Shown in pieces: positions 8,483-39,035 of a DNA stretch of 64,000 bases; position 1 is the stretch's first letter; every line of letters starts with the position of its first letter. The notes under the pieces were generated by a model that worked only from the letters and a program-made list of their open reading frames with translations, ran no database searches and was not told where the DNA came from. The stretch comes from Candidatus Enterovibrio escicola (GTDB lineage: Bacteria > Pseudomonadota > Gammaproteobacteria > Enterobacterales > Vibrionaceae): contig NZ_NBYY01000009.1 of the NCBI RefSeq assembly GCF_002464935.1, forward strand, positions 124,001-188,000, read 5' to 3'. The translations under genes were made by a program, and so were the position numbers.

Positions 8483-8855
8483 ATCAGGTACTCATCGGAA
8501 AAATGTTCTCTTTAACTGATCTATATCATACATGTCATCTTCCAGATTTTGTCGTACTGGTTCAAATAGTAAGGTATCGAAAGCAGTACAACGGCCTATT
8601 TGTATCTGTGTTGAATTTTCGGTTGATCTAATTGGTGCAATGCTACTGGTGGCTATCGCCAGCTTAGTATGGATACTGACAGTATGGCCAAGATTAATTA
8701 TCTTACTTAGTCACATCCCTTGTGATGCGTGATAGCAACATGTTAACGCGGTACTTGATCTTTCAGTGGCTAGTGATGCTACTTTATAGGTTAGAAGATG
8801 TATTTAAGCGGTATAAGTTTGGTGACATCACGAGGGTAGGAAAACAGGAATACAC
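8483..8855 (+). pseudogene. ptsP: ptsP (PTS-Ntr enzyme I) 3' relic
   Basis: Reading across several frames gives the end of PtsP. One frame reads TDLYHTCHLPDFVVLVQIV, the next RPICICVEFSVDLIGAMLLV (compare RPVSLCGEMASDP in enzyme I proteins), then LSMDTDSMAKINYL in a third, with an internal stop, and a tail ending GKQEYT just before the TauE/SafE start. PtsP passes phosphate from PEP to NPr. At least two frameshifts and stops make this non-functional. In vibrios and E. coli ptsP lies between rppH and lgt, so this is its native 3' flank. The matching 5' relic is next to rppH at about 38.9 kb. The alignment is from memory, but the order of matched motifs is correct. Confidence 0.75.
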
Positions 8856-8857
8856 TC

Positions 8858-9667
8858 ATGATGGATACTACCATGTGGTTTTTCGTTGTTTGTCTAGTTT
8901 TAGGCTGCTGTGTAGGATTACTAGCGGGATTACTGGGAATCGGCGGCGGTTTGCTCATTGTGCCCACATTGTCATCTGTACTGCCATGGGCGGGTATTTC
9001 TTCACCAATACTAATTATGCCTATGGCGTTGGCGACTTCTTTAGCTAGCATTGTTATCACTTCCTTGTCTTCTGCTTTGTCCCACTATCGATTGGGAAAT
9101 GTACAGCCTTATGTGATTAAGGCCCTCCTGCCAAGTCTTTTGATGGGTGGGGTTATAGGTAGTGTGATTGCCGACCGTTTACCTGTCAATTACCTACCAC
9201 GTATATTTGGTGGGATCGTGTGGATGTTGGCGCTTCAAATGATGTTTTCATTACGTGCTGAAACAGCACGAGCACTTTCCTTCACTACAGCCCATGTATT
9301 AAATGGCTGCATTATAGGGATTCTTTCTAGTTTAGTGGGTATCGGTGGTGGTTCTTTTACTGTGCCTTATTTGACTTACTGTGGTATTAAAATGCATAAA
9401 GCTATTGGTACAGCATCTTTTTGTGGGGTATTCCTTGCTGCGGCAGGCATGTCTAGCTTTATCGTTCTTGGTCTATCACAACCGGAACCGTTATTCAAGT
9501 ACAGTGTTGGATATGTTTACTTACCCGCATTGATTGGTATCACAACCACTTCAGTATTTACAACGAAATATGGTGCTAAACTTGCTTCACGTTTATCAAC
9601 TTCCATTATTAAGCGAATATTTGCTGTATTTTTGCTTTTGGTGGGAGCTCGTATGTTTTTAACCTAA
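8858..9667 (+). CDS. TauE/SafE-family membrane permease
   Basis: The 269-residue protein is hydrophobic throughout and carries the duplicated TauE/SafE (former DUF81) motif: GLLGIGGGLLIVPTL near residue 25 and VGIGGGSFTVPYLTY near residue 155. Members export or import sulfur-containing organic anions such as sulfite, sulfoacetate or taurine products; the substrate here cannot be told. ATG ATG opens the frame, with AGGA about 10 nt upstream. It sits between the ptsP relic and lgt, 14 nt before lgt, so it is probably co-transcribed with lgt. Its former promoter may have lain upstream in the ptsP operon. Confidence 0.9.
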   Translation: MMDTTMWFFVVCLVLGCCVGLLAGLLGIGGGLLIVPTLSSVLPWAGISSPILIMPMALATSLASIVITSLSSALSHYRLGNVQPYVIKALLPSLLMGGVIGSVIADRLPVNYLPRIFGGIVWMLALQMMFSLRAETARALSFTTAHVLNGCIIGILSSLVGIGGGSFTVPYLTYCGIKMHKAIGTASFCGVFLAAAGMSSFIVLGLSQPEPLFKYSVGYVYLPALIGITTTSVFTTKYGAKLASRLSTSIIKRIFAVFLLLVGARMFLT

Positions 9668-9681
9668 GGAAAATATAATTA

Positions 9682-10482
9682 ATGTCTTTAAAATTTCCGC
9701 AAATAGATCCAATTGTGATTGAAATTGGTTCAGTCGCTGTTCGCTGGTATGGATTGATGTATCTGGCTGGATTGGTCTTTGCTTTCTGGTTGGCAAACTG
9801 TCGTGCAGATAAGCTGGGTAGTGGTTGGACACGTGATGAAGTCAGTGATCTTCTTTTTGCTGGGTTTCTTGGGGTAGTTTTCGGTGGTCGCATTGGTTAT
9901 GTGTTGTTTTATCAATTTGATGTCTTCCTCAACAATCCCTTATTCTTGTTTAAGGTCTGGATGGGAGGAATGTCTTTTCATGGTGGTCTATTGGGCGTGA
10001 TATTTGCCTTAGTATGGTTCTCCTCCCGCACAAACCGTAATTTATTCGTGGTTTCCGATTTTATCGCACCGCTCGTACCATTTGGCTTGGGTGCCGGTCG
10101 ATTAGGTAATTTTATCAATGGCGAACTTTTGGGACGTAAAACTGATGCGGCGTGGGGCGTAGTATTTCCAATCGACAATCCTATTGTACGTCATCCGTCA
10201 CAACTCTATGAATTGATGCTTGAGGGTGTTGTATTGTTTTTTATCCTAAATTGGTTTATTCGTAAGCCACGTCCAATGGGGGCAGTATCAAGCTTATTCT
10301 TGATTGGGTATGGTGCATTCCGTATTATTGTGGAGTTTTATCGAGAGCCAGATGCGCATTTGGGGTTGTTTGGAGATTGGATTAGCATGGGACAAATCTT
10401 ATCAGCTCCGATGGTTATAACTGGAATCTTGATGATGGTATGGTCTTATCGTTGTCACCTAAATACACAGGATGCTACCTAA
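9682..10482 (+). CDS. lgt: Prolipoprotein diacylglyceryl transferase
   Basis: This 266-residue inner-membrane enzyme moves diacylglycerol from phosphatidylglycerol to the lipobox cysteine of prolipoproteins, the first step of lipoprotein maturation. The Lgt signature [16 protein letters not shown] is present with Arg140 and Asn143, and FHGGLLG gives His100, aligning with E. coli Arg143, Asn146 and His103 with a constant shift of three. Seven membrane segments are traceable. AAGGAAAAT precedes the ATG. In relatives thyA follows lgt directly; here an IS5-A relic follows, and thyA is 5 kb away on the other strand. YajG in this window is a probable substrate. Confidence 0.97.
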
Positions 10483-10534
10483 AACCGTATTCTAGATGTA
10501 GTTTGTCTTGGGCTTTCTCTTGAATTAAGGAAAT

Positions 10535-10573
10535 AGCCTCAAATCTGTATAAGAGAGTCTTTTTCAAGTTGGT
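10535..10573. mobile_element. Possible mini-IS982 relic (both ends, no body)
   Basis: AGCCTCAAATCTGTATAAG resembles the IS982 right end. About 30 bp later TTGGT is followed by TAATTA, the same target flank used by IS982 in other IS5-A copies. It looks like an IS982 that lost its interior. The left-end match is poor. Confidence 0.35.
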
Positions 10574-11477
10574 TAATTACGAAGAATAAGTTTAGGGCTG
10601 AGCAACTGTTTATAGCGAAGCATTGCTGTCTCTGCTAATGAGCGTTTATGATAATCCTTGTTTTTTTTCCACTCCACCAGTTTAGCCTCTTTTAAAGCCT
10701 TGACAGCTTCATTTCTAGAATGCCCTTTCTCCCAGTACCCCGCGTTGCTTCGAGGTGGAATACAGGGCGTTATTTCTTTGTTCTTCAGTACGTGGTGACA
10801 CGCTCTTGTGTCATAGGATCTATCAGCACTTACTTGCTGTATCTTTCGTCGTAATGAGTTAAGCAATATAGGTAAAACCTCACTTATCACCCACAAAAAC
10901 TAGGATAACTTCTGCAGCAATAAACTCCTGAGTAGACACATTAACGGCAAGATGCTGTTTGCGCCAGATCCGTCGCTTCTCCTTCCCATGTTTACGCGTT
11001 TCTCATTCACCTTCGTCGTATAATTTTAAGCTTGTGGCATCAATAACGATGTGGGAGACTGCTCCTCGACTCGGCAAAGGGTACTTAACTTCTATGATCT
11101 TCGAACGCTTACTAATGCAAGTGTATGTAGGGGATTCCAGCGGGACATTCATCAACGTAAAAACTGAATTGAGAAAGCCTTCTAATCCATGAAGTGGGAG
11201 CTTGAAAATACCTTTCACCATCAGTACCGTTTCAATTTTGGTATCCGAAAATATAAAGCCACGGTTACGATGACCGTGATGCTTTAGGCGACACCACGCC
11301 TTAATAGCAGCGACGTTTATCCAAAAAGTCACTGAGCTACGGTTTACTAATGCTTGATGATATTGTTTCCAGTTTTTGATCTTGATCTTTCCATTTCCCA
11401 CCATCACCTCCCACTTAACTCCATGATAATCTAATCGTAGGAATTGTGATTAGTTCAGATATTTGGGAAATAACACC
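10574..11477 (-). mobile_element. IS5-A copy, 3'-truncated, transposase frameshifted
   Basis: The 5' end is at 11477 (GGTGTTATTTCCC on the complement). The minus strand encodes MMVGNGKIKIKNWKQYHQAL through DATSLKLYDEGE (11407-11003). A TGA then interrupts it, and a second frame (10896-10573) continues with LRRKIQQVSADRSYDTRACH and PPRSNAGYWEKGHSRNEAVK. The conserved last 35 codons and the 3' terminal repeat are missing; the break is at the TAATTA site used by IS982. It follows the end of lgt. Confidence 0.85.
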
Positions 11478-11553
11478 ACGGTAGCCACCAAAATATACCT
11501 ATTGAATAAATGAGTAGTTTGTTGATAACACTAATACATTCAACAAAATACAG

Positions 11554-12744
11554 CTAATAATCAATACGAACCTTCTTTTCATCACAATTTTCATCTACCT
11601 CATTCGATTCCAGTAACACAACATTCAGCAAGGAATATCCTGCTAGAGCCGAAAGAGTTGAACCCATTAAGATGCCTAGTCTCGAGAGTGTAATGTAGCT
11701 TTCACCAACCCCAGAAAATGCCAATGATGAAATAAAGATCGACATCGTAAAACCAATTCCACACAATAATGACACTGCAAAAATCTGTTTGAAATTCACT
11801 TTTTCAGGTAGCTTTGCTAGACCGATCTTCACAGATACCCAGCAAAACATAAATATACCTAAGGGCTTACCCATCAACAATCCTAGTGCGATACCAATCG
11901 GTAAGGTATTGGTTAAGCTAGCTAACGACACACCTTCTAGGGATACACCAGCATTAGCGAACGCAAACAGTGGAAGAATCAAGAATGCCGCATAAGGGTG
12001 AATCGCATGTTCCAGCGTTTTTAGTGGTGACTTTCCATTTTTCTTACCCTCAAGCGGAATGATAAAACCAAGTATTATACCAGCAAGTGTTGCATGTACA
12101 CCCGACTTAAGAACACTGAACCACAATATCAGTCCAATCAACATGTACCATTTAATATCCGTCACATTTTTATTGTTCATCAAATATAATGCTACGGTTG
12201 AAAGAAAAGCTATCGTCAATGCTATCAATGACAGATCACTGCTATAGAAAAAAGCGATTATGACAATAACACCCAGATCATCAATGATTGCCAACGCCAA
12301 CAAGAACACTTTTAGTGATAGAGGGACTCGCTTTCCCAGCAGTGCCATCACACCCAGTGCAAATGCAATATCAGTTGCCGAGGGTATCGCCCAGCCACTT
12401 GCGGTCAGAGGGTCATTAAAATTAAAGGTCAGATACACTAACGCAGGAAACAACATACCGCCAATAGCTGCAATGGCTGGGAAAATAGCCTTTTCTTTCG
12501 TATTGAGGGCACCTTCTATTAATTCTCTCTTCACTTCAAGACCAATTAGAAGGAAAAAGATAGACATTAGGCCATCGTTTATCCAATGTCCTATAGACAA
12601 ACCTGCTATATAGCGATGCAATACACTCTCATAGAGTAATTGCAATGGGGAGTTTACAATGCATATTGCTAGTATTGCAGCAACCATCAGCACTAAACCA
12701 CCGGCTGACTCCATTTTGAGAAACTGACGAATTACATCAGTCAT
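11554..12744 (-). CDS. nhaA: Na+/H+ antiporter NhaA
   Basis: This 396-residue inner-membrane antiporter expels Na+ in exchange for protons and sustains pH and sodium homeostasis. The ion-binding pair is present ([11 protein letters not shown], Asp155-Asp156), as are the preceding Asp125 in [12 protein letters not shown] and the Lys in [10 protein letters not shown], equivalent to E. coli Asp163/164, Asp133 and Lys300. Length matches the family (about 390). No nhaR regulator lies next to it. Its upstream side is only about 50 bp from an IS5-B relic, so the native control region may be partly lost. It stands alone between IS relics. Confidence 0.97.
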
Positions 12745-12792
12745 TTAAAGCACTCCATTATAATTTGTCATTCGTAATTATTAATTACTAGG

Positions 12793-13046
12793 GGCAGTTA
12801 ATTTTTGCTGTACAAAACTCGTACAACAATACAACGGCAGCCAAATTAACATACATGCCAGTGATACTATATCGACGTCATTTCTCACAATTCTTCATAT
12901 CTAGTTGAAACTGAATGATATTATTTAATCATCCTACAGGAATTTCCTACTAAATGACTATTCTTATATAGAAACTAGTCTATACCACTTTTATTAATAT
13001 CTCGCCCATAATTTTGCTTAGCAATGACAATCTTTCCACCTTTAAG
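12793..13046 (-). mobile_element. IS5-B C-terminal fragment
   Basis: The complement matches the 8200-8460 fragment along its length: GGAAAGATTGTCATTGCTAA, then the stretch coding for KQNYGRDINKSGID, then an end with TTTTGTACAGCAAAAATT. It carries stops and is cut at 13046 by the 5' end of an IS5-A copy. Confidence 0.75.
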
Positions 13047-13047
13047 C

Positions 13048-14109
13048 AGCGTTATTTCCAACATATCTGAACTAATCGCAATTCCTACGATTAGATTATC
13101 ATGGAGTTAAGTGGGAGGTGATGATGGGAAATGGAAAGATCAAGATCAAAAACTGGAAACAATATCATCAAGCATTAGTAAACCGTAGCTTAGTGACTTT
13201 TTGGATAAACATCGCTGCTATTAAGGCATGGTATTGCCTAAAGCATCACGGTCATCGTAACCGTGGCTTTATATTTTCGGATACTAAAATTGAAACGGTA
13301 CTGATGGTGAAAGGTATTTTCAAGCTCCCACTTCATAGATTAGAAGGTTTTCTCAATTCAGTTTTTATGTTGATGAATGTCCCGCTGGAATCCCCCACAT
13401 ACACTTGCATTAGTAAGCGTTCGAAGATCATAGAAGTTAAGTATTGTTTACTGAGTCGAGGAGCAGTACCTTTAACAACCTGATATCTGAGAATGCGGAG
13501 GTTGTGACAAACCTGTAGCTGGGACGAATCAACGAAGGCAATCCCTGTTGGCTTTTCCTGACGGTGAGTGAGGTAAAAGCAAAGCGGAACCAAAACACCT
13601 TGCATAAGCTTGAGAATTCTCGTGTAGCTGAATAATTCAGGAAATTCGTTGGTGAAGTAGCGACAAACAAAGTAGATGTAATAGGTTTTAAAGTCTCAAT
13701 ACCCAAATTGATGGAAAGCTATCACTATCGTCATCACTTCGCTAACTGAAAGGCGAGAAGGTTTGTTTCTTTATTTAACACCGAAAGCAATTAGGTGTTT
13801 TTCCCGATCAGAGAGGAAAGTCGAGCAAAAGCCATCGACATCAACGAAAACAGCGTCTCAGTTATTCATGACCAAGTCCTTGTCCAGTCAATAGTTTATT
13901 TCAAATGATCAGATCGAGACTTGGGCATTCAGTGCATTTCTTATACGTAATTCAGGTTAATTACAATACTCAAGTTAGTTAAGCATTGGTAAATGTGAAA
14001 GCGATGAACAAAGTTCTAAGACTCGTTATGCTTGTTCACCAGCAGACAAATTAAGACTGCAAAAAGATTTGGATCAGTGCGTTATAGGCCTGATTGAATC
14101 AACAACACC
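13048..14109 (+). mobile_element. IS5-A copy split by half an IS982
   Basis: The 5' end starts at 13048 (AGCGTTATTTCC). The frame from 13121 encodes MMGNGKIKIKNWKQYHQALV through SKRSKIIEVKYCLLSRGAVP, then breaks at about 13463 into IS982 sequence. The IS5-A 3' tail resumes at about 13967 with CAATACTCAAGTTAG and ends AACAACACC at 14109. Both the IS5 core and half the IS982 are missing. The 13967 junction is the same as the one at 5097. Confidence 0.8.
13464..13966 (-). mobile_element. IS982 5' half nested in IS5-A
   Basis: The minus strand holds the IS982 left end (AATTCAGGT at 13966 reading inward) and the first half of the transposase in broken frames, including SYLTHRQEKPTGIAFVDSSQ and LQVCHNLRILRYQV. 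The right half of the element is gone, with a direct join to IS5-A at 13464. Confidence 0.75.
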
Positions 14110-14436
14110 ATCACAATATCCAAAATGTTTAACGAATAAACATGATGTATCTACAAAGATAATTTTATTATTACCATAAACAAAAAGACTTTCTCCGAGA
14201 TGTAACCCAAACACAGCCTATTTAAATAAAAGGCGAGCAGTTGCACAACGTCGATAAAGAATCATAGTAATCTGTTTAATAACGATAAAAATACAAGTTC
14301 TTGTCCTAAGTTATATCAATCCTATTGATAATAGAAAGGTATCAGTAGTCCAATTGTAATATTAGTGCAATATTTTATCCCTACTATCGCTTTCAGGTCC
14401 TTTCATTGACATACAACTGACACGGAGATTTCTTTT
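14110..14436. other. Intergenic region before nptA
   Basis: No gene is seen in these 327 bp. They should contain the nptA promoter. TTGACATACAACTGAC lies close to the start, at 14406, too near to be the -35 of the main promoter unless the leader is very short. No phosphate-control box was recognised. Confidence 0.5.
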
Positions 14437-15582
14437 ATGACATCCCAAGCCTCGACTGCTGCACCGATTAACAGCTCTAATAATTGGGTACGTTGGGCCA
14501 ATCTGGCATTAATGCTTTATACACTACTTGTTGCAGTATCCATGGTTGGTAGTGGTTTCAAATGGGCAGTAGGAAAGGAAGCAAATACATTATTCTTATT
14601 TGCTTCTCACCCTGTTGCTAGCCTGATGATCGGTATCATTGCAACTGCATTGATCCAATCCTCAAGCACTGTTACATCCATTATCGTGGGTTTAGTCGCG
14701 GGGGGCCTACCAGTTGAAACAGCCATCCCAATGATAATGGGTGCCAACATCGGTACTACCGTTACTAATACGGTAGTAAGTATGGGACATGCACGTTGCA
14801 AAGATGAATTCCGTCGTGCGTTTACCTGTGCGACTATCCACGATTTTTTCAACTTGTTGGCCGTTTCTATCTTTTTGCCTCTAGAAATCATGTCTGGTTT
14901 TCTAGAAAAGATCTCAGGTTGGCTTGTTGCCCCGCTGATATTTGAGGGCAATTTGAGTATGAAAGGCTTAGACTTCATGGGTACTTTGACGACACCTTTA
15001 GTGAATAGTACTAAAGATATGTTGTCTACCCTTACAGGTAACTGGGGTGCAATAGCATTAATCGTCATCGGCATTACATTGATCTTCGTATCAATCACCA
15101 TGATGGGAACCCTGATGCGTTCTTTAATGGTGGGTCGTGCAAAAGAACTCCTACACAGTGCAATCGGTCACAGTCCAATCCACGGCATCTTATCAGGCAC
15201 TATCGTCACTATATTAGTTCAATCTTCGTCAACGACAACTAGCCTAATGGTTCCATTGGTCGGAACAAAAGTTTTAAAAGTACGTGATGTTTACCCATTT
15301 ACTTTGGGTGCAAACATAGGTACGTGTGTCACAGCACTGCTGGCAGCAACCGCTGTAACGGGTTTAAACGCTGTATTCGCAATGCAAATTGCTTTGGTTC
15401 ACTTAGCGTTCAACGTGCTGGCAACACTGCTAATCTTCGGTATCCCATTCTTGCGTGAGATCCCCTTGAAATGTGCAGAAGTACTGGGTGAAATCGCAGC
15501 AAAAACCAAACTGGCGGTTATTGCTTACTTAGGGCTGGTATTCATAGCCATACCTGCAGGTATTTTATTAATGACCAAATAA
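14437..15582 (+). CDS. nptA: Na+/phosphate cotransporter, NptA type
   Basis: This 381-residue membrane protein has two Na_Pi_cotrans repeats, each with the QSSST signature (ALIQSSSTVTSIIVGLV near residue 70 and ILVQSSSTTTSLMVPLV near residue 265) and each with a GANIGT motif. It is the NptA/PNaS family known from Vibrio cholerae, driving inorganic phosphate uptake with sodium. Length fits NptA (about 380). No PhoU-like tail is fused. It lies tail to tail with thyA, an arrangement I believe to be ancestral in vibrios. An ACGGAG site lies upstream of the ATG. It is intact. Confidence 0.93.
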   Translation: MTSQASTAAPINSSNNWVRWANLALMLYTLLVAVSMVGSGFKWAVGKEANTLFLFASHPVASLMIGIIATALIQSSSTVTSIIVGLVAGGLPVETAIPMIMGANIGTTVTNTVVSMGHARCKDEFRRAFTCATIHDFFNLLAVSIFLPLEIMSGFLEKISGWLVAPLIFEGNLSMKGLDFMGTLTTPLVNSTKDMLSTLTGNWGAIALIVIGITLIFVSITMMGTLMRSLMVGRAKELLHSAIGHSPIHGILSGTIVTILVQSSSTTTSLMVPLVGTKVLKVRDVYPFTLGANIGTCVTALLAATAVTGLNAVFAMQIALVHLAFNVLATLLIFGIPFLREIPLKCAEVLGEIAAKTKLAVIAYLGLVFIAIPAGILLMTK

Positions 15583-15706
15583 ATCCGTCAAGTCCACTTA
15601 AGACGTTTCTTTGAGTCTCCTTGGAAGAACCTACCCTTCATTTCATTCCAGCCCATAAGAAGGACTCAGTACCTTAAGTGATCCGCGTTTATATAACGTT
15701 GTATTA

Positions 15707-16546
15707 CTAAATCGCAATCGGAGCTCTAATCATAGACTGTGCTTCGTAGCCTTCAATCTCGAAGTCTTCGAACCTATACCCAAAAATTGATTCAGGCTTA
15801 CGCTTTATCTTCAGCGTTGGTATAGTCCTAGGTGAGCGCTTCAGTTGCTCATATACTATCTTATCGGTCAGATGATTCCGATAGATATGAACATCACCAA
15901 AAGTATGAACAAAATCGCCGACTTCTAAATCACATTGCTGTGCAATCATATGGATAAATAATGCATAGCTTGCTATATTAAACGGGACACCAAGGAAGTA
16001 GTCTGCGCTACGCTGATAAAGCTGACATGATAATTTTCTATCAACAACATAGAACTGAAATAAGCAATGACAGGGCGCTAACGCCATTTTTCCTTGTTCA
16101 ACGTTTTCTTGGGGACTCATTGTCTCATTCGGCAAATCTGCAGGATTCCACGCAGTAATGATGAGCCGCCGAGAATTTGGTTTAGTTTTGATTTGATCAA
16201 TTAGCTCAGTTATTTGATCCACGCTAGAACCATCATGGCAAACCCAAGAGCGCCATTGCGCGCCATATACAGGGCCTAAATCACCAGTCTTTGTTGCCCA
16301 ATCATCCCAAATAGACACCTGATTTTCTTGCAGATATCTGATGTTGGTATCCCCATTTAAAAACCAAAGTAGTTCATGAATAATGGCACGTGTATACATT
16401 TTTTTTGTTGTGAGAAGAGGAAAACCTTGCCTAAGATCAAAACGCAATTGACGACCAAACACAGAGCGGATACCTACACCCGTACGATCGCTCTTATCAT
16501 TACCCTTATCGATTATATCCTGCATCAAATCAAGATATTGCTTCAT
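15707..16546 (-). CDS. thyA: Thymidylate synthase
   Basis: ThyA methylates dUMP to dTMP using methylenetetrahydrofolate. The 279-residue product has the catalytic Cys159 in [12 protein letters not shown], the phosphate-binding pair Arg126-Arg127 ([13 protein letters not shown]), and the conserved [13 protein letters not shown] and [10 protein letters not shown]. Length matches vibrio ThyA (about 283). AAAGGAAAT precedes the ATG. In relatives it directly follows lgt on the same strand; here lgt is 5 kb away and opposite. No defects were seen. Confidence 0.98.
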
Positions 16547-16689
16547 ACATATTTCCTTTCGTTATCTCGCTCTCTAGCGGGATATTTATTTAATGACACA
16601 AAAGTCTAAATTCAAGTTTGAAGTACGATACTTTATAATCAAACTACTGATGCCATATTTTTAATAAATAACGGCTCACTGCTTGAATA

Positions 16690-16950
16690 GTAAATAGTTT
16701 TTAGGCCGATGATTATTCCTTACTTGAATGAAGATATTATCTCTAATTTCAAGACTATTCTTAAGTCTATACCTTTATTTACCTAGTGTCTCAAAAGCCC
16801 ATCAGCATTCTTATTTTCCCCTCATTCCTATGAACAGTTAGGGTAAACAAAATAAATCTCAGTATCCAAAGCTTTTGCTATATCTTCATGATGAGCGAAT
16901 GCTCGGCCATAATCGTGTAGACATGTTTCTTGTGTGGTATCAATAAATCA
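16690..16950 (-). mobile_element. IS30-family fragment
   Basis: This stretch aligns by eye with 57410-57675, the catalytic and C-terminal part of the IS30 relic there: shared TAGGCCGATGAT, then TCTCAAAAGCCCAT, then CTTCATGATGA. It is interrupted at AATAAATCA by the next IS982. Multiple stops are present. Confidence 0.65.
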
Positions 16951-28460: not shown

Positions 28461-28611
28461 CAGTTTATGATCCAGTACCCAGTGAAAGGATGAAATGCAT
28501 AAATAAAAAAATGGATAATGGCTGGTTTTTATAACGTTAACCCTTACAGATACTGAATAAAAGTCTGTTGGCGGACATTAAGTTTCTCTTCCAGTCATTA
28601 GCCCGTTAAAG

Positions 28612-30659
28612 GGCGTTCTTGATAAAATCAGGCCTATAACTCACTGATATAAGTCCTTTTTACAGTCTTAACTTATCTACTGGAGAACATGTATACCTAG
28701 TCCTAGAACTTTGTTCATCGCTTTCACATTTGCCAGCACTTCACCAATTGGAGCATTGTAATCACGAAGAGTGAGTTTAGGGCTTAGAAACTGTTTATAG
28801 CGAAGCAGTGCTATCTCTGCTAATGAGAGTTTGTGATAATCCCTGTCCTTTTTCCACTCTGCCAGTGTGTCCTCTTTTAAAACCTTTACAGCTTCATTTC
28901 TAGGATACCCTTACTCCCAGTACCTGCGTTGCTTCGAGGTAAAATACTGGACGTTATTCCTTTGTTTTTAGTACATGGTGACATGCGCTTGTATCATAGA
29001 CTCCATCAGCACAGACTTGCTGTATCTTGGGTCGTAATGGGTTAAGAAATGTAGGTAAAAGCTCATCTTTACCCATAAAAACTAGGCTAACTTCTACAGT
29101 AATAACTTCATGAGTAACCTGAGCTACGCATCAGAAATAAACTAAATATCCAAGTCACGATCTGATCGTTTGAAATAAACTATTAACTGAACAAGTACTT
29201 GTGAATGAATAACTTAGACGCTGTTTTCCTCGATGTCGACGACTTTTGCCAAACTTTCCTCCCTGCATGGGAAAACAACTAATTTCTTCCGGTATAAAAC
29301 AAAGAAATAAGTCTTTTTACCTCTCCGTTAGCGAAGTGATGATGATAGTGATAGCTTTCCATCAATTGGGGTATCGAGACTTCAAAACCTATTACATCCA
29401 CTTTGTTTGCTGATATCTCACCAACGAATTTCCTGAATTAGTCAGCTACACGAGAATGCTCAAGCTCATGCAAGCTGTTCTGGCTCCTATTTGTTCTGTG
29501 TTTTTTGTTATTTGCTCTTACCTCACTCACCGTCAGGCAAAGCCAACAGGGATTTCCTTCGTTGATTCGTCTAAGCTACAGATTTGTCACAACCTACGCA
29601 TTCTCAGACATCAGGTTTTTAAAGGTACCTCGAAGCGCGGAAAAGGAACGATGGGCTGGTTCTACGGTTTTAAATTACACCTTATTATCAATGATCTCGG
29701 TTGGTATTATCTCAGTCGAAGTGACGACGGATAACATGGATGATAAAAAGCCCGTATCAGAAACTTCTGACGAGCTTTGGGATGTTTATACGGAGATAAA
29801 GGTTATATCTCTGGTCCATTGGAACAGGAACTTGCAGACAAGAGAGTGACACTGATAATGGTTATAAACAAATATGAAACCCAAAGTGATGAAAATTTGG
29901 AACCGCCTGATGCTCCGGAAACAATTTATTATTGAAACCGTTTTTGACCAACCAAAAAACATATCCCAAATCAAGCATTTTCGGCACCGTAGTTGTATCA
30001 GCTTCATGGTTAACTTGCTGGTGGGACTCATCGCGTATTCATTTCAACCAAAAAATCCGAGCATCAAGATGACTGGGCTTGATAAGCAAGCGCTTATGCA
30101 GATCTAAGATTGAGTAGACACATCAACGTCAAGATGAAGTTTACGCTAGATACGCCTATTTTCCTTACCGAGTTTACGCGTTTTCCATTTACCTTCTCCG
30201 TATACCTTTAAGTTTGTGGCATCAATAACGCCGCAGACGATAGCTCCCAGACTCGGCGAACGGTACTTAACTTCTACGGTCTTAGAATGCTTACTAATGC
30301 AAGTGTATGTAGAGGATTTCAGCAGGACATTCATCAACGTAAAAACCGAATTAAGAAATCCTTTTAATCCACGAAGGGGAAGCTCAAAAATACCTTTCAC
30401 CATCACTGCCGTATCAATCTTAATATCCAAAAATATAAACCCACGTCCACGATGACCTGATGCTTTAGAAAAAGCCATGCCTTAATGGCAGAGATGTCTA
30501 TCTAAAAAGTGACTGAGCCACGGTTTAGTAATGCTTGATTATATTGTTTCCAGTTGCTGATCTTGTACTTGGTCTTTCCCATCATCACCTCCAGCTTAAC
30601 TCCATGATGATCTAATCGTAGGAATTGCGATTAGTTCAGATATTTTGGGAAACAACGCC
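28612..30659 (-). mobile_element. Full-length IS5-A copy interrupted by IS982
   Basis: The 3' end GGCGTTCTTGATAAAATC starts at 28612 and the 5' end finishes at 30659 (AACAACGCC). The IS5-A sequence is continuous if 29117-30110 plus one TGAGTA is removed. The transposase on the minus strand is in pieces: KASGHRGRGFIFLDIKIDTA, IDATNLKVYGEGKWKTRKLG (30478-30146), and a decayed C-terminal half at 29110-28740. It separates thrC from the gltB upstream region. Confidence 0.88.
29117..30110 (+). mobile_element. Full-length IS982 nested in IS5-A with TGAGTA target duplication
   Basis: The 994-bp element runs from ACCTGAGCTACGCATCAG to CAGATCTAAGAT, flanked by TGAGTA at 29111-29116 and 30111-30116. 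The transposase reads YLTHRQAKPTGISFVDSSKL, KRGKGTMGWFYGFKLHLIIN, then shifts frame (VEVTTDNMDDKKPVSE), and later KPKVMKIWNRLMLRKQFIIE, ending DKQALMQI. At least two frameshifts inactivate it. This is the clearest copy for defining the element ends. Confidence 0.92.
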
Positions 30660-30843
30660 CTTTAAAACTCATTCTATATTCTGGTCTATCAAAAATATAT
30701 CTATGCTCTTCATTAGTTGGAGTAACGACTTTTAGTGATTATCAGTTAACATAATTCTAAGCATGATTTTATAGGTTAGGTTGTTTTTAGTAAAGTGGTC
30801 ATAATACTTAATCATCTGTTCAAAAATACTCATTAAAGGTCAG
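30660..30843 (-). mobile_element. IS5-B N-terminal fragment
   Basis: The complement reads GACCTTTAATGAGTATTTTT (element end) and then MLRIMLTDNH, stop, SLLQLMKS, matching the 20125-21425 copy. It is cut at 30660 by the IS5-A 5' end. Confidence 0.65.
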
Positions 30844-31311
30844 CTCACCTTAATAAATTACAAGAAAAAACTTCCCCTAATCAGACATTACCCCCTAGTA
30901 AAATTACTATTCACAAGACCTACTTAATAGCTATTCTATATTTAGAATATTCGCAAGTAAAATCGGATATAACAATTCACTGCATAATAGATTGTTAATT
31001 TTCAATAGTAATTGAAATCCGAGATATGTAGGATATCTGTAGTTACGCCTACTTTATAAACAATGCAATTCGCAAAAAATCGCTCATGCTTAGCAACAAA
31101 TTCGGCATTCTGGAAAAAGCGCAGCGCGCCTGCATAGTTTTACAAAACTACAAGGTTACTTTTATTGGTCATGATAATTTGATTCGGTTGCTGTGGATCG
31201 ACACTTTTGTTGATTTAAACATAGTAGTCGCTATGACCATGCCCGTAAAAGGTATGGCTAGGGAATATAAATTCCCCCACTGCATTTGTGTCTACTGGAA
31301 GGACGTAAAAA
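30844..31311. other. Intergenic region upstream of gltB
   Basis: No gene is supported in these 470 bp. The region is AT-rich until about 31080 and should hold the gltBD promoter and leader. A short frame (31086-31367) overlaps the gltB start out of frame and is not convincing. A TGGAAGGA ribosome site precedes gltB. Confidence 0.5.
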
Positions 31312-34300
31312 ATGACAGATTCAGTGCTACGCACAGAAGGGCTCTATGTACCAGAAATGGAACATGATACATGTGGTATCGGCTTCATTGCCCACCTAAA
31401 AAACAGAAAATCCCATGTAATTATTACTCAAGCACTTGATATGTTGGCACGTATGGAACACCGCGGTGGTCAAGGCTGCGATCCCTGTAGCGGTGATGGC
31501 GCTGGTATTCTGTTACAAAAACCCCATGAATTCTTACTAGAAGAAGCTCGAAATATCGGATTCCAACTCCCGCAGTCGAACAAGTACGGTGTAGGTGTGA
31601 TGCTTTTTCCTAAAGACGAAAACAAACGCGAGCAATGCCGAGAAATCTTTGAGCGGAACACAACGCTCCTAGATCTCGAAGTCATTGGTTACCGAGTATT
31701 ACCAACCGACAATTCAATGATCGGAGTCGACCCCTTAGGTACGGAACCACAATTTGAGCACGCCTTTATTACATGCAGTAAATACTTTTCACTCGATGAG
31801 CTTGAGCGTAAACTATTTGTATTGCGTAACTACACTGTTCGTGTGTGCCTCGAAAGCGTATCAAATATTGGTGATGATTTTTATATCAATTCACTCTCCG
31901 CCAAAACAATGGTTTACAAAGGTCAGCTAACAACAAAGCAAGTACCTCAGTACTTCTTAGATCTGCAAAACACATCTATGGTAACGGCACTGGCGCTAGT
32001 TCACTCCCGCTTCTCAACTAATACTTTCCCGAAATGGCGTTTAGCGCAACCTTTCCGTTATATTGCACACAACGGCGAAATCAATACGGTTCGTGGAAAC
32101 CTAAACTGGATGAAAGCACGTGAAGCGTTACTGGAATCACAACTGTTCAATAAGCAAGAATTAAAAATGCTTCTTCCTATTTGTCAAGAAGACGCATCAG
32201 ATTCCGCTAACTTTGATATGGCATTAGAGCTGCTAGTGCTCGCTGGCCGCAGTCTGCCACACGTTCTCATGATGATGGTTCCCGAGGCATGGGAAGAAAA
32301 TAGCAACATGGATCCGAAACTCCGTGCGTTTTATCAATACCACGCCAACGTGATGGAACCTTGGGATGGTCCTGCATCACTTTGCTTTACTGACGGTTTA
32401 AAAGTAGGAGCAATGCTTGACCGTAACGGTCTACGGCCAAGCCGTTATACCATCACCAAAGATGATTACCTCATAGTAGCATCCGAGTCTGGTGTCGTAG
32501 ACATTGAACCTGAGAATATTCACTTCCGTGGACGCTTACACCCAGGGCGAATATTTATTGCCGATTTAGAACAAGGACGCATTATCTCTGATAAAGAAGT
32601 AAAGGACGAAATTGCTTCCGCTCAACCTTACAAAAAGTGGGTTGAAAAAAACTTGCTCCGACTGGATAAACTGCCAGAAGCTGGTACCAAACATCAACAA
32701 CCATCTCCTGAACGCCTGCTGCACCGGCAGCAAGCTTTTGGTATGACAACAGAAGAAGTAAACGAAATCTTGGTAACAATGGCAAAAGAGGGTAAAGAAC
32801 CACTTGGTGCAATGGGGGCTGACTGGCCATTAGCCGTGCTATCTCATCAATCCCAGCATTTGTCTAACTATTTCAAACAACTATTTGCTCAAGTGACCAA
32901 CCCACCGATCGATCCGATTCGTGAACGCATGGTAATGTCTCTTAAAACATATTTGGGTAGAGATCAAAACCTGCTGATTGAATCGGAAGAACACTGTCGT
33001 AAAGTTGAGCTAGAAAGTCCAATTTTAACTAATGCCGAATTAGAAAAACTGCGTGAGATCGATAACGAACACCTACAAGCAAAAACGTTGGATATCGTTT
33101 TCGGTGCCAGTGGTAACTTGGGAGAACTTGAACGTGCGTTAAAGCGTATTTGTCAGTATGCTGAAGATGCTGTTATCGACGGTTACTCCATTATCTTGCT
33201 GACTGACCGTGCGGTAAACTCAAACCACGCAGCTATCCCTGGCATGCTTGCCGTCAGTGCCGTTCATCACCATCTTATCTGCAAAGGTCTGCGTGCTAAA
33301 ACAGGAATTGTCATCGAAACTGGTGACGCGCGTGAAACTCATCACTTTTCTACACTCGTTGGTTTCGGTGCGAATGCTATTAACCCTTACCTAGTCTACG
33401 AGACTTTAGTCGAACTACAGCGTACAAAAAAACTCGACCCTGAGGTCGATGTGAATACACTGTTCGAGAACTACCGAGCATCTATTAACGCAGGTCTGCT
33501 GAAGATCTTCTCGAAAATAGGCATCTCTACCTTCCAATCTTACCACGGCGCACAGATTTTCGAGGCACTTGGCATCAGCAAAGAAGTTGTTCAAAAGTAT
33601 TTCACTGGTACCGTTTCACGTATTCAAGGACTTAGCATTGACGATATCGCCAGAGAAGTCTTAATCCGTCATCGAATAGGTTACCCAACGCGTGAGATCC
33701 CCGTACAAATACTGGATACTGGTGGTGTATACCAATGGAAACAACGTGGTGAAAAGCATTTATTCAATCCAGAAACCATCCATTTACTGCAGAGTTCCAC
33801 TCGGAATAAAGACTTCACGCAATTTAAAAAATACTGCTACGCTATAGATAAACAAGGCGATAATGCAGTGACACTGCGTAGCCAATTTGATTTCGTGAAA
33901 TATACTGGAGATAATATTCCTCTGGAAGAGGTTGAACCCATTGAGAGCATTCTGAAACGCTTTGCTACAGGTGCGATGAGCTTTGGATCTATCTCACACG
34001 AAGCACACTCTACGTTGGCAGTTGCCATGAATAGGATTGGAGCAAAATCTAACTCCGGTGAAGGTGGTGAAGATCCTAACCGTTTTGAGAAGAAAGAAAA
34101 TGGCGACTGGGAATGTTCCGCCATCAAACAGGTCGCATCTGGTCGCTTTGGCGTGACATCTTATTATCTGGCTAACGCCTCTGAAATCCAAATAAAAATG
34201 GCTCAAGGCGCCAAACCTGGTGAAGGAGGTCAACTACTCGGCCATAAAGTGGATGATTCGATTGCGCACACACGTCACTCCACTCCTGGGGTAAGTCTCA

Positions 34301-35859
34301 TTTCACCGCCACCACACCACGATATTTACTCTATCGAGGATCTGGCTCAGCTGATCTTTGATTTGAAAAATGCCAACCGTAAAGCACGTATCAATGTCAA
34401 GTTAGTGTCAGAAACTGGTGTAGGTACTATTGCTTCCGGTGTTGCAAAAGCAAAAGCAGACGTGGTTTTGATTTCGGGTTCCGATGGAGGTACTGGTGCA
34501 TCACCACTGTCATCAATTAGGCATGCTGGGCTTCCTTGGGAGCTTGGTCTTGCAGAGACACACCAAACACTACTGAAGAACGGACTGCGTAACCGAATTG
34601 TCGTTCAATCTGACGGTCAAATGAAAACACCTCGTGACCTTGTAGTGGCAACATTGCTAGGTGCAGAGGAATGGGGAATTGCAACAGCGGCACTGATTGT
34701 TGAGGGTTGTATCATGATGCGTAAATGTCACCTCAACACCTGCCCTGTTGGTATTGCAACTCAAGACAAAACTCTGCGCGACCGCTTTAATGGTCGCGTT
34801 GAAGACATAGTGACCTTCTTCACCTACATGGCAGAAGGTTTACGTGAAGAAATGGCCAAAATGGGATACCGCACCATCAATGAAATGGTCGGTCAATCCC
34901 AACACCTAAAAGTGCGCAGTGATATCGGTCATTGGAAATATAAAAATCTTGACCTCAGTGTCATTCTCCATAAAGAAAAACCACGCAAAGGTGATGGTAT
35001 GTTCTGCCAACGTAAGCAAGATCACGCACTCGAATCTGTACTAGATCTCAGTCTAATTGCAGCTGCAACCAACGCGTTACACGGAGGACAGAAAGTCGAT
35101 GCCCAGTTCACTATCGTCAACACCGATCGCAGTGTCGGTGCAATGCTATCGAATGAAATTTCAAAGATCTACAAAGACCGAGGCTTACCTGAACAAATGA
35201 ACGTGAAGTTCAAAGGCTCAGCAGGCCAAAGCTTTGGCGCCTTTCTAGCGAAAGGCGTCACCTTCGAAGTAGAGGGGGATGCGAATGATTACTGGGGTAA
35301 AGGTTTATCCGGTGGAACTTTAATTCTATATCCTGATTCCAAGAGTAACATTATTGCCGAAAAAAACATCGTTGTAGGTAACGTCTGCTTCTATGGTGCA
35401 ACCTCTGGTGAATCCTTCATTCGTGGTGTAGCAGGGGAGCGTTTCTGTGTACGTAACTCAGGTGCCAAAGTGATTGTGGAAGGTATAGGTGATCACGGTT
35501 GTGAATACATGACTGGCGGTTTTGCTATCATTCTCGGTCAAACTGGCCGCAACTTTGCCGCTGGTATGAGTGGTGGCATCGCCTACATTTGGGATGAATT
35601 TGGAGATTTTGAAACAAAACTAAATGCTGACCTAGTTGATCTTGATCCCTTGGATACAGAAGACATTAAACTACTTAAAACAATGATCGAAAAACACCAA
35701 GCCCTCACAGGCAGTTCAGTGGCTAAAACCTTTATTTCAAACGTTGATGAAAACCTAAAACGTATCATCAAAGTTATACCTCGCGATTACAAAGCCGTCA
35801 TTGAACAACACAAAATACAAATCGATAATAAAGAAGAAGTGGAGGTTGTCAATGAGTAA
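31312..35859 (+). CDS. gltB: Glutamate synthase (NADPH) large subunit
   Basis: The 1515-residue alpha subunit of GOGAT makes two glutamates from glutamine and 2-oxoglutarate. The N-terminal glutamine amidotransferase has its nucleophile at Cys21 (EHDTCGIGFIAH), after a 20-residue propeptide. The central and FMN synthase domains show GEGGEDPNRF, GAKPGEGGQLLGHKV and SGSDGGTGASPLSSIRHAG. The 3Fe-4S cysteines are Cys1133, Cys1139 and Cys1144 (CIMMRKCHLNTCPVG). The C-terminal GXGXG domain carries GQSFGAFLAKGVTFEVEGDA. Length is near E. coli (1486). Its end overlaps gltD by 8 nt. Confidence 0.98.
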   Translation: MTDSVLRTEGLYVPEMEHDTCGIGFIAHLKNRKSHVIITQALDMLARMEHRGGQGCDPCSGDGAGILLQKPHEFLLEEARNIGFQLPQSNKYGVGVMLFPKDENKREQCREIFERNTTLLDLEVIGYRVLPTDNSMIGVDPLGTEPQFEHAFITCSKYFSLDELERKLFVLRNYTVRVCLESVSNIGDDFYINSLSAKTMVYKGQLTTKQVPQYFLDLQNTSMVTALALVHSRFSTNTFPKWRLAQPFRYIAHNGEINTVRGNLNWMKAREALLESQLFNKQELKMLLPICQEDASDSANFDMALELLVLAGRSLPHVLMMMVPEAWEENSNMDPKLRAFYQYHANVMEPWDGPASLCFTDGLKVGAMLDRNGLRPSRYTITKDDYLIVASESGVVDIEPENIHFRGRLHPGRIFIADLEQGRIISDKEVKDEIASAQPYKKWVEKNLLRLDKLPEAGTKHQQPSPERLLHRQQAFGMTTEEVNEILVTMAKEGKEPLGAMGADWPLAVLSHQSQHLSNYFKQLFAQVTNPPIDPIRERMVMSLKTYLGRDQNLLIESEEHCRKVELESPILTNAELEKLREIDNEHLQAKTLDIVFGASGNLGELERALKRICQYAEDAVIDGYSIILLTDRAVNSNHAAIPGMLAVSAVHHHLICKGLRAKTGIVIETGDARETHHFSTLVGFGANAINPYLVYETLVELQRTKKLDPEVDVNTLFENYRASINAGLLKIFSKIGISTFQSYHGAQIFEALGISKEVVQKYFTGTVSRIQGLSIDDIAREVLIRHRIGYPTREIPVQILDTGGVYQWKQRGEKHLFNPETIHLLQSSTRNKDFTQFKKYCYAIDKQGDNAVTLRSQFDFVKYTGDNIPLEEVEPIESILKRFATGAMSFGSISHEAHSTLAVAMNRIGAKSNSGEGGEDPNRFEKKENGDWECSAIKQVASGRFGVTSYYLANASEIQIKMAQGAKPGEGGQLLGHKVDDSIAHTRHSTPGVSLISPPPHHDIYSIEDLAQLIFDLKNANRKARINVKLVSETGVGTIASGVAKAKADVVLISGSDGGTGASPLSSIRHAGLPWELGLAETHQTLLKNGLRNRIVVQSDGQMKTPRDLVVATLLGAEEWGIATAALIVEGCIMMRKCHLNTCPVGIATQDKTLRDRFNGRVEDIVTFFTYMAEGLREEMAKMGYRTINEMVGQSQHLKVRSDIGHWKYKNLDLSVILHKEKPRKGDGMFCQRKQDHALESVLDLSLIAAATNALHGGQKVDAQFTIVNTDRSVGAMLSNEISKIYKDRGLPEQMNVKFKGSAGQSFGAFLAKGVTFEVEGDANDYWGKGLSGGTLILYPDSKSNIIAEKNIVVGNVCFYGATSGESFIRGVAGERFCVRNSGAKVIVEGIGDHGCEYMTGGFAIILGQTGRNFAAGMSGGIAYIWDEFGDFETKLNADLVDLDPLDTEDIKLLKTMIEKHQALTGSSVAKTFISNVDENLKRIIKVIPRDYKAVIEQHKIQIDNKEEVEVVNE

Positions 35860-37321
35860 ACCACCTGGATTTTTAGAATTTAGCCGTGAATTGCCCGCCA
35901 ATAAATACCCTGATGTTCGTATTCAGGACAACAAAGAGTTTGTCCTAAATGAAAAGTTTGGCAAAAAAATTAACGAACAATCGGCACGCTGTATGGATTG
36001 TGGTGTACCATTCTGTCACAATGGTTGCCCTATCGGTAATATCATCCCAGAATTCAATGATGCAGTTTTTAGAGATAGCTGGGAGGAAGCATGGCAAATC
36101 TTGAGTTCAACCAACAACTTTCCTGAGTTCACCGGCAGGATATGCCCAGCACCTTGTGAAAGTTCTTGTGTGTTGGGTATTAACCAAGACCCAGTCACCA
36201 TTTGTAATATAGAAAAAACCATCGTTGAAACCGCCTACCGAGAAGGCTATGCAAAACCAAAAACCCCAAGATTCCGTGCTGGTAAAAAAGTCGCCATCAT
36301 AGGTTCTGGTCCTGCTGGACTTTCTGCAGCAGAACAGCTGAACAGCGCAGGCCATAGTGTTACTGTGTTTGAGAGAGACGAAAAAATTGGGGGTTTACTA
36401 CGTTTTGGTATACCCGACTTCAAACTTGGAATGGACATCATAGATCGCAAGATCAACTTGATGGAAAAAGCAGGCATTAAGTTTGAAGTAAATACCCATG
36501 TTGGTGTAACTGTCAACGCTCAGCAAATTCGTCAAGACTATGATGTAGTATTGCTGACTGGTGGTTCAACTGTGCCACGAAATTTGCCTATTCCTGGAAG
36601 AAATTTAAAAGGTGTTCATTTTGCTATGGAGTTTTTGGGTCAAAATAACCGCAGAGCAAATAACATGGATCTGAAAACAGAGGAACTCCATGCTAAAGAT
36701 AAACACATTGTAGTTATTGGTGGTGGTGATACAGGCTCTGACTGTGTTGGCACCTCAAACCGTCATGGGGCAAAAAGCATTACTCAAGTTGAAATTATGC
36801 CGATTCCACCGGCGAATCGTCCAGCTAACATGCCGTGGCCTCAGTATCCCACGATCATGCGTACATCTACTTCACACGAGGAAGGCTGCAACCGTCATTG
36901 GAACATTCTGACCAAAGAGTTTATCGGTGATACAGCGGGTAATATCAAAGCCCTCCGTATTGCCGATGTCGTATGGAAAAATAAGGTGTTAACCAAACAC
37001 CAAAGCTTCCAAGAGGTAGTGAACTCTGAACGTATCATCTCATGTGATATGGCTCTCCTTGCGATGGGTTTTTTGCATCCTGAGCCACATGGTGTATTGG
37101 CACAGCTTGACGTTAAATTGGACAACACTGGAAACGTGGCGACTAAAAACTTCTTGACAGATAAAGAAGGCGTGTTTGCTGCAGGTGATATGCGAACGGG
37201 GCAATCTTTGGTTGTATGTTGTATCAATGAAGGACGAGAATGTGCACGGGCCATTGATACCTACCTGATGGGTGATACATATCTTGAGGCTAAAGCTGAC
37301 TCTTTAATGCTCTCCGCATAA
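35852..37321 (+). CDS. gltD: Glutamate synthase (NADPH) small subunit
   Basis: The 489-residue beta subunit takes electrons from NADPH and passes them to GltB. I chose the ATG at 35852 because GGAGG lies 7 nt upstream and it matches the usual MSKPPGFLEF start; a longer frame begins at 35801 inside gltB. The 4Fe-4S cysteines are in ARCMDCGVPFCHNGCPIGN and GRICPAPCESSCV. Two nucleotide-binding loops follow: VAIIGSGPAGLSAAEQL (FAD) and IVVIGGGDTGSDCVG (NADPH). The last part ends with GVFAAGDMRTGQSLVV. It is translationally coupled to gltB by an 8-nt overlap. Confidence 0.98.
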   Translation: MSKPPGFLEFSRELPANKYPDVRIQDNKEFVLNEKFGKKINEQSARCMDCGVPFCHNGCPIGNIIPEFNDAVFRDSWEEAWQILSSTNNFPEFTGRICPAPCESSCVLGINQDPVTICNIEKTIVETAYREGYAKPKTPRFRAGKKVAIIGSGPAGLSAAEQLNSAGHSVTVFERDEKIGGLLRFGIPDFKLGMDIIDRKINLMEKAGIKFEVNTHVGVTVNAQQIRQDYDVVLLTGGSTVPRNLPIPGRNLKGVHFAMEFLGQNNRRANNMDLKTEELHAKDKHIVVIGGGDTGSDCVGTSNRHGAKSITQVEIMPIPPANRPANMPWPQYPTIMRTSTSHEEGCNRHWNILTKEFIGDTAGNIKALRIADVVWKNKVLTKHQSFQEVVNSERIISCDMALLAMGFLHPEPHGVLAQLDVKLDNTGNVATKNFLTDKEGVFAAGDMRTGQSLVVCCINEGRECARAIDTYLMGDTYLEAKADSLMLSA

Positions 37322-37360
37322 TCATAAATCAGTGTTATCCTCCAATTTTATCAGTTCTAT

Positions 37361-37860
37361 AAGCTAGATCAAAATAAATTGGCATAATCCACATGCTGAT
37401 AAGATAACTCGTCAATGGAACAGCGCTCTTTCCTTCTTATAGACTTCACTTCTGCCCATTTATGTTCTATTGGGTTAAGATCTGGACTGTAAGGAGGAAG
37501 CCTATCTAAAGTACAACCACGAACTTCAAGTGTGTCGCTACACTTATGAAAACTCGTATTATCCATAACAATCATAGCTTTCTCTAGAACTTTTGGAAGT
37601 AAATCTTATTCGATCTATTCATAAAACACTTCCGTATTGACGCCTCTAATTACTAAGCTAAGCGTTAAAAACGTATGATTGATGATAACGCCAATGGCGT
37701 TATCTCTTCCTTTCGAGTGCCCATAATGAACTCCATAGCATGGACTTCCTTTTTCCGAGGAACCCTGTGTTCGAGGCATACTCTTGGCAAACCAACTTTC
37801 ATATAAATTACCTGAGCTATATAACTTGGCCTTTTTCTTTTCAGAATGTTAACTGAATAC
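37361..37860 (-). mobile_element. IS630-family relic
   Basis: The minus strand encodes MIVMDNTSFHKCSDTLEVRG and RLPPYSPDLNPIEHKWAEVK (37575-37369), the second and third catalytic parts of an IS630 DDE transposase. Upstream in the same direction, 37800-37600 gives KSMPRTQGSSEKGSPCYGVH and NAIGVIINHTFLTLSLVIRG, followed by a nonsense codon (VFYE then stop). The N-terminal third is missing. The end is GCTAGATCAAAATAAATTGG at 37361. A second fragment lies at 46406. Confidence 0.8.
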
Positions 37861-37874
37861 AGTTGCCCTAAATG

Positions 37875-37946
37875 ATCTTCAGATCTATATGAAGATGGTT
37901 AACCTCAGGTCTGCGTAAACGCTTGCGTATGCAGACCTGAGGTTAA
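37875..37946. repeat. Hairpins from head-to-head IS982 right ends
   Basis: TTAACCTCAGGTCTGC (37899-37914) and GCAGACCTGAGGTTAA (37931-37946) form a perfect 16-bp inverted repeat with a 16-nt loop. Each arm is an IS982 right end, joined through GTAAACGCTTGCGTAT. Just upstream ATCTTCA (37875-37881) pairs with TGAAGAT (37890-37896). No T run follows the large hairpin. Confidence 0.8.
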
Positions 37947-38102
37947 GTTCTCTCGCGATGCTGAAGGGAAATATGAAGGTGAATCCGATATGAATATATC
38001 CTGTGCAAACACCTGCTAATTTTGCGGGTTACTAAATCGGTACAACAGTGTCAGAGTTAATGGTAATCGATATAACCTCAGCCAGTAGGATGCCGACCCA
38101 AC

Positions 38103-38800
38103 GGAATTGTTTTCCAAACATCTAAACTAATCGTAATTCCTACAATCAGATCATCTTGGAGTTAAACAGAAGGTGATGATGGGAAAGGCCAAGCCCAATA
38201 TCAGCAACTGGAAATAATATAATCAAGCATTAATAAACCGAAGCTCAGTCACTTTTTGTATATACATAGCTACCATTAAGGCATGGCATTGTCTAAAACA
38301 TCACGGTTAACGTGGACGGGGTTTATATTTTCGGATACTGAAATTGAAATGCCACTGATGGTGAAAAGTATTTTCAAGCTCCTACTTCGTGGATTAGAAG
38401 GCTTTCTCACTTCGGTTTTGACGTTGATGAATGTCCAGCTAAAATTCCCTACATACACTTGCATTAGTCAGTATTCGAAGACCGTAAAAGTTAAGTACCT
38501 TTTGCCGAGTTTAGGAGCTATCGCCCACGTCATTGTTGATGCCATAGGCCTAAAAGTATGCGACGAAAGTGAATGTAAAAACGCGTAAACACGGTAAGGA
38601 TAATTGGCGTATTTGGCGCAAACTTCATCTTGCCGTTGATGTGTCTACTCATGCGGTTATTGCTGCAGCAGTTAGCCTAGTTTCTGTGAGTGACAAAGGA
38701 GGTTTACTTACATTGCTTAACCCATTACGACGAAAGATACAGCAAGTCAATGCTGATGAATCCTATGACACAAGAGCTTGTCACAACGTACTGAAAAGTA
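38103..38800 (+). mobile_element. IS5-A copy, 3'-truncated
   Basis: The 5' end is GGAATTGTTTTCC at 38103. The frames cover MMGKAKPNISNWK, a stop, then GFIFSDTEIEMPLMVKSIFK (38283-38588) and, after a frameshift, TRKHGKDNWRIWRKLHLAVD through QQVNADESYDTRACHNVLKS. The sequence leaves the element near ACGCCCG at about 38800. The following GACCTAAAGGTC palindrome lies inside a CCCG/CGGG pair. Confidence 0.8.
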
Positions 38801-38879
38801 ACGCCCGACCTAAAGGTCTAAGACGGGACAAGTAAGTCTCAAGAATAAAACCCTTTCATAACCCTTAATTCATATCCCT

Positions 38880-39035
38880 ATTTTTCATAGGGAAGCGATA
38901 TATACAGGGCGGTGTTTTGTTTCAGTTTCTATACCTGTTCCGGTAGTTAATGTATTGAACTCGTGCTTCACGGCGCTAAACGCCACAACATGTTGCACAA
39001 TATTCCTCAATTTCGTAAACAGATACCACTCATTA
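38880..39035 (-). pseudogene. ptsP: ptsP (PTS-Ntr enzyme I) 5' relic
   Basis: Directly downstream of rppH, the minus strand from about 39030 reads FTKLRNIVQHVVAFSAVKHE, then FNTLTTGTGIETETKHRPVY, IASL and a stop. It resembles the PtsP N-terminus (LTRLREIVEKVA ... ILVT..C.AM.TEVCSVYLA), a GAF-domain start. No start codon is left in a good position, and the frame ends after about 45 codons at IS5-A debris. PtsP normally follows rppH on the same strand, so position and sequence agree. The 3' part of the same gene lies at 8483-8855 in the opposite orientation. Confidence 0.7.

Follow-up and report, generated by a model that had tools for sequence, protein, structure and literature searches.

Decayed halves of ptsP in the anglerfish symbiont 'Candidatus Enterovibrio escacola', lost with its nitrogen phosphotransferase system, and a junction possibly shared with its sister species

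The nitrogen branch of the phosphotransferase system (PTSNtr) is described in its standard form as a PtsP-PtsO-PtsN relay (e.g. PMC12369347), and loss of ptsP has been reported from other proteobacterial lineages (PMC2405797). Here we analyzed the fate of ptsP in 'Candidatus Enterovibrio escacola' MJ02 (G000), the symbiont of the anglerfish Melanocetus johnsonii (Hendry et al. 2018, PMC6020299), within a stretch of 64,000 nucleotides (the window; contig C5:124001-188000); the assembly comprises 39 contigs and 2,645,619 bp. For this genome, 974 pseudogenes and 888 transposase genes are given, and all 55 pseudogenised non-transposase genes are said to adjoin, or be interrupted by, transposase fragments (Hendry et al. 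2018, PMC6020299). While the main text of that paper treats pseudogenes associated with insertion sequences (IS), it contains no mention of inversion, synteny, rearrangement, gene order or nitrogen, and the phosphotransferase system (PTS) figures there for sugars only. Searches of mostly non-subscription literature returned no paper that names both Enterovibrio and ptsP, and none on the nitrogen PTS in symbiont genome reduction or on gene order in these symbionts. Taken as a whole, it is very likely that ptsP is dead in this symbiont, cut by an IS-associated rearrangement among at least eight inversions, that the entire PTSNtr is gone, and that the new junction of the 5' half is probably ancestral.

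We found two relics of ptsP in the window, 30 kb apart and in opposite orientation, which agrees with an original prediction made from the letters of the window; tblastn, DNA alignment and controls gave concordant results. Using the PtsP proteins of 12 congeners (loci L003-L014) as queries, tblastn at E<=0.05 returned two places only in 264 kb of the window's contig. The 5' relic was recognized by residues 1-43 at 39022-38894 on the minus strand (best 35.8 bits, E 0.001), and the 3' relic by residues 640-752, matched in pieces at 8512-8844 on the plus strand (best single piece 46.6 bits, E 1.1e-7), whereas the top score in six controls (the 264 kb reversed once and shuffled five times) was 28.9 bits (E 0.13). 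The predicted matches to the start and the end of one and the same PtsP protein were thereby obtained, with the 5' relic extended by DNA alignment to about residue 66 and the 3' relic beginning near residue 622; the pieces had been identified correctly, and their limits, which had been placed slightly off, are corrected in Table 1. An origin from PtsI was considered and rejected, since the PtsI encoded in this genome gave no match to either relic. Both halves show the decay that had been expected of them: the 5' relic has lost its ATG and carries stops near its end, while the 3' relic contains a 7-base gap, frameshifts and stops. About three quarters of the gene length is lost and the two ends remain, with no match to the middle (residues 67-620, five queries) at E<=0.1 in the 264 kb.

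The neighbourhoods of the relics identify them further. As a reference for the ancestral order we used the genome G016, with which G007 and G013 are collinear over the compared stretches (140 kb and 180 kb, respectively), and the order comparison covered 300 kb of this reference, the 264 kb of escacola and one contig of a sister symbiont. In G016, and collinearly in G007 and G013, the order is rppH-ptsP-TauE-lgt-thyA. Each relic has kept its native neighbour in the native orientation, as predicted, with the rppH stop at 39087 on one side and the TauE start at 8858, followed by lgt, on the other. Both ends of PtsP are thus present as homologous remnants in their native place and orientation, as expected of a pseudogene of ptsP, and no full-length frame with GAF and enzyme I domains was found. 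Profiles for PtsP and for the enzyme I C-terminus found no second ptsP genome-wide, these profiles being blind to relic-grade decay so that small scraps are possible; the only enzyme-I-type protein found in the genome is PtsI (578 residues, contig C37; profiles NF008283 and PF02896).

From the break, the original prediction had deduced a loss of the nitrogen branch from enzyme I, and the loss we observed is wider. The genome encodes a single HPr, beside ptsI, and both general proteins of the sugar PTS remain. A domain search of the genome yielded no PTS_EIIA_2 protein, and neither ptsN nor rapZ was found in it. A relic of npr lies at C9:1682-1930, with four stops and 53% identity to NPr over residues 6-52, and it occupies its native place, as the 455-residue gene that follows it in G016 follows it here too (82% identity), along with other shared next genes. 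We rejected HPr and the HPr domain of a fructose protein as sources of this relic, because those queries gave no match there while NPr did, with the native neighbour beside it. With npr a relic and no match to ptsN, the genome lacks a functional relay: the PTSNtr of escacola is absent, not merely severed from enzyme I.

Other genomes of the genus show intermediate states. In the sister symbiont 'Ca. E. luxaltus' CC26 (G004), the order rpoN-hpf-ptsN-rapZ is kept (rpoN and hpf labelled by eye); ptsN aligns over its full length with one stop and is followed by an intact rapZ and then by a short npr relic (C1:1350925-1352236, within locus L134). In two further genomes (G002 and G014; 98% complete, 330-370 contigs, 3.6-3.7 Mb), ptsP is missing in place with the order intact, the distance between rppH and TauE now being 0.7-0.85 kb (about 9767-10488 of L132 in G002 and about 9811-10660 of L133 in G014); NPr was not found in these two, yet their ptsN is intact. 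Across the 18 genomes of the genus, ptsP is readable or nearly so in 14 (12 intact, and in pieces in G001 and G006). NPr occurs at >=80% identity in all 14 of these and intact in none of the four without ptsP, two of which have an intact ptsN. This distribution, drawn from few independent events, hints at an order of loss in which EINtr and NPr vanish together and EIIANtr later.

The sister symbiont, which lay outside the view of the original prediction, bears on the age of the break. An rpoB tree of 21 rows groups escacola and luxaltus as sisters (support 86/91, under the starred level of the tree), as does the published tree (PMC6020299). Like escacola, luxaltus has its ptsP split into two separate relics, the 5' relic after rppH (C1:1255727-1256183, on a contig of 1,604,691 bp) and the 3' relic before TauE, lgt and thyA (C1:1188400-1188640). 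Their approximate extents are residues 1-153 and 668-748 (2 of 20 queries place the start of the latter near 620), and they lie 67 kb apart on the same strand, whereas those of escacola lie 30 kb apart on opposite strands. On this contig, the middle of ptsP matched only at the known 5' relic and at the ptsI locus. In luxaltus, 983 bp separate the 5' relic from the arcB that follows it (NF008302), and most of this spacer consists of repeats that recur elsewhere in the two genomes. As the order in G016 is arcB, two genes, gltB and gltD, the 5' relic joins the gltD end of the arcB-gltBD cluster in escacola and its arcB end in luxaltus, in identical orientation. Allowing for genes lost, the same ends are joined in both species, as expected of a common rearrangement. 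The four genes that follow arcB in G016, up to and including gltD, did not appear on the luxaltus contig C1, and gltB of the escacola type was found in no luxaltus contig, a paralogue at 43% identity being the only one to answer. As gltB of this type was not found in luxaltus, gene loss between arcB and gltD would suffice to derive either junction from its counterpart.

Upon mapping the escacola junctions on the complete luxaltus contig, we found 2 of the 14 testable ones to be common to both symbionts. The second joins serB to prfC in escacola and to ytjB in luxaltus (presumably ytjB, that is, as the gene had no family match). When block orders were simulated in 20,000 runs per model, at least two common junctions arose by chance in 29 runs with a random block order and in 47, 117 and 294 runs with increasingly local ones (0.15-1.5%), and the ptsP junction itself arose in 106, 103, 157 and 123 runs (0.5-0.8%). 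Several observations argue the other way. The 3' junctions differ, a xerD relic adjoining in escacola and dnaG-rpoD in luxaltus (dnaG by TIGR01391, rpoD labelled by eye), and the relic ends are unlike in the two species. Imposing an 8-kb position limit left 1 of 11 testable junctions in common, with the ptsP junction dropping out; mapping in reverse placed none of four luxaltus junctions on escacola (from an incomplete luxaltus contig); and the serB junction could have arisen twice by a short local inversion. The sequence separating each relic from its new neighbour showed repeats and weak matches, with no decisive scrap of gltBD in luxaltus and no common IS. At base level, decay has cut both sides of the junction back to different lengths, with different repeats beside them, a picture compatible with one breakpoint as well as with two. 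On balance, we lean towards a 5' junction of ptsP that dates back to the common ancestor of escacola and luxaltus; with slightly less assurance, we favour placing the ptsP break together with at least one other junction (serB/ytjB-prfC) in that ancestor.

The strongest competitor is that ptsP was broken twice, once per symbiont, through a separate IS insertion and rearrangement, with 5' junctions that are alike by coincidence. It accords with the published trees of IS5 copies, from which separate expansions, differing in timing between the symbionts, were deduced (PMC6020299), with the 12 of 14 testable junctions that are not common, and with the differing relic lengths. Against it stand the low chance frequencies under the models run, for the ptsP junction and for two or more common junctions alike, and the failure to find gltB of the escacola type in luxaltus, an absence that a shared junction needs. 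We regard independent breaks as possible and as the less probable of these two accounts.

As for the manner of the break, the window has, relative to G016, the block order A -F -C +B +H -I +J +D -E -G +K; the 3' half of ptsP closes C, its 5' half opens D, J is gltBD, and B extends from nhaA to thyA. The inversion distance from the ancestral order is at least eight, with inversions alone allowed, and 68,992 shortest scenarios exist. The original prediction envisaged one inversion between IS copies, which our results support in part. Reversing the 30-kb segment between the relics does rejoin the gene and lies on a shortest path (distance 8 to 7), but just 7,980 of the 68,992 shortest scenarios place this inversion last. 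One IS5-type family (best profiles NF033579 and PF13737) occupies 8 of 11 break gaps compared to 1 of 16 collinear gaps (Fisher p 5.8e-4), and IS activity is probably the agent of the break. Weighing against this association, significance is lost (p 0.20) when the comparison is confined to gaps of >=900 bp, where the family occurs in 8 of 10 break gaps and 1 of 3 collinear ones. Furthermore, no matched inverted IS pair was found at the ptsP junctions by blastn of both flanks or by protein family, and RecA (PF00154) was found in neither symbiont genome, with positive results in 14 of 14 controls. Because no RecA was found, classical IS-IS recombination must predate the loss of RecA, or another route was used. 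The IS types at the two junctions also differ, that at the 5' relic being a 3'-truncated NF033579 copy and that at the 3' relic an NF033580 relic of another IS5 subgroup; both fragments fall under the whole-protein cut-offs of their families. An inverted pair of related copies at 38.1-38.8 and 10.8-11.5 kb was considered as the agent and rejected, since, judging from the block order, an exchange between them would not rejoin ptsP. Hence, while reversal restores the ancestral adjacency, a clean IS-to-IS inversion is not readable in the junctions, and the predicted single inversion lacks support in that simple form.

A single inversion in the escacola lineage alone, between inverted IS copies at exactly 8.46 and 38.85 kb and followed by decay, is unlikely in our judgement. 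It draws on the rejoining of the gene upon reversal and on the IS5-group relics at both junctions. These relics belong to different subgroups, however, and the copy on the N-terminal side is truncated. The inverted segment is moreover not the ancestral neighbourhood, as it contains the nhaA-thyA block in flipped orientation along with blocks (gltBD and aceK) that originally lay beyond rppH, and the sister species has a split ptsP with a compatible junction. A misassembly at repeats that separated the ptsP ends, conceivable in a repeat-rich assembly of 39 contigs, is highly improbable given that the pieces themselves are decayed, that the gene middle was found neither in the 264 kb nor by genome profile, that the junction IS copy (38107-38797) is at most 90% identical to any of the 39 other copies scored (40 of 290 candidates scored), with no exact repeat known there, and that luxaltus, assembled separately, likewise has its ptsP split.

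The relics and the features around them are listed in Table 1.

Table 1. Relics of ptsP, their native and new neighbours, and adjoining IS elements (positions in the window).
Feature	Position	Strand	Evidence
ptsP 5' relic, residues 1 to ~66	about 38848-39022	minus	DNA alignment with 9 of 12 congeners; tblastn
ptsP 3' relic, residues ~622 to 752	about 8460-8844	plus	DNA alignment with 9 of 12 congeners; tblastn
TauE/SafE-family permease, native downstream neighbour of ptsP	8858..9667	+	PF01925; order in G016, G007, G013
lgt, native neighbour	9682..10482	+	TIGR00544
rppH, native upstream neighbour of ptsP	39087..39566	-	NF001934
mutH, native neighbour of rppH	41074..41754	+	NF003458
gltB and gltD, new neighbours of ptsP 5' relic	31312..37321	+	gltB NF008730; gltD TIGR01317
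xerD relic (residues 105-178, 49% identity), new neighbour of ptsP 3' relic	7791..8009	+	G016 query named XerD by TIGR02225
IS5-family copy (NF033579 type), 3'-truncated, between gltD and ptsP 5' relic	38107..38797	+	IS family profiles
IS relics abutting ptsP 3' relic: 48-bp repeat (8030-8077) and IS5-type NF033580 transposase relic (8101-8467)	8030..8467	+	
Further member of the IS family at 38107-38797, in inverse orientation to that copy and flanked by lgt and nhaA	10784..11473	-	

Among the new neighbours, the glutamate synthase genes have survived as reciprocal paralogues, with escacola retaining one gltBD pair (31312-37321) and luxaltus the neighbouring other pair (C1:1312764-1318675). 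A XerD query gave only a 31% match on the luxaltus contig C1, and both symbionts may be without xerD, the search in escacola having covered 264 kb. The 48-bp stretch at 8030-8077 has 23 other matches in the 264 kb, at 81-95% identity, and probably represents the terminus of a further IS.

Returning to the reading that we prefer, ptsP would probably have become dispensable on host restriction, and an IS-associated chromosome rearrangement would then have cut it, leaving the two ends in the orientation and state of decay observed. This cut is one of at least eight inversions, a minimum if inversions alone acted and in whatever order they came, that shuffled a once collinear region. With IS5-type elements at most break sites, the agent was likely an inversion or deletion promoted by an IS. 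The whole relay is gone, with npr a relic at its native place and with searches that found HPr and PtsI and no ptsN. Were the break common to both symbionts, later species-specific IS bursts would be secondary.

The genome reduction of the two symbionts has been described as possibly independent (Baker et al. 2019, PMC6773444), and our data suggest that the ptsP break predates the split of the two species. If true, rearrangement and loss of the PTSNtr, and so reduction, began before escacola and luxaltus parted, contrary to that published reading. Whether there was one reduction or two, a question left open by the 2018 paper, could furthermore be judged better from a shared junction than from IS trees. 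Overall, the fate of ptsP is ordinary for an IS-ridden symbiont genome, and what deserves further attention is the shared junction. Compared to a working PTSNtr, this locus can no longer give rise to a GAF-EI protein, with npr a relic and ptsN not found; its relics descend from the ptsP (EINtr) gene of the PtsP-NPr-EIIANtr relay and stand beside the same rppH and TauE-lgt neighbours as in the congeners.

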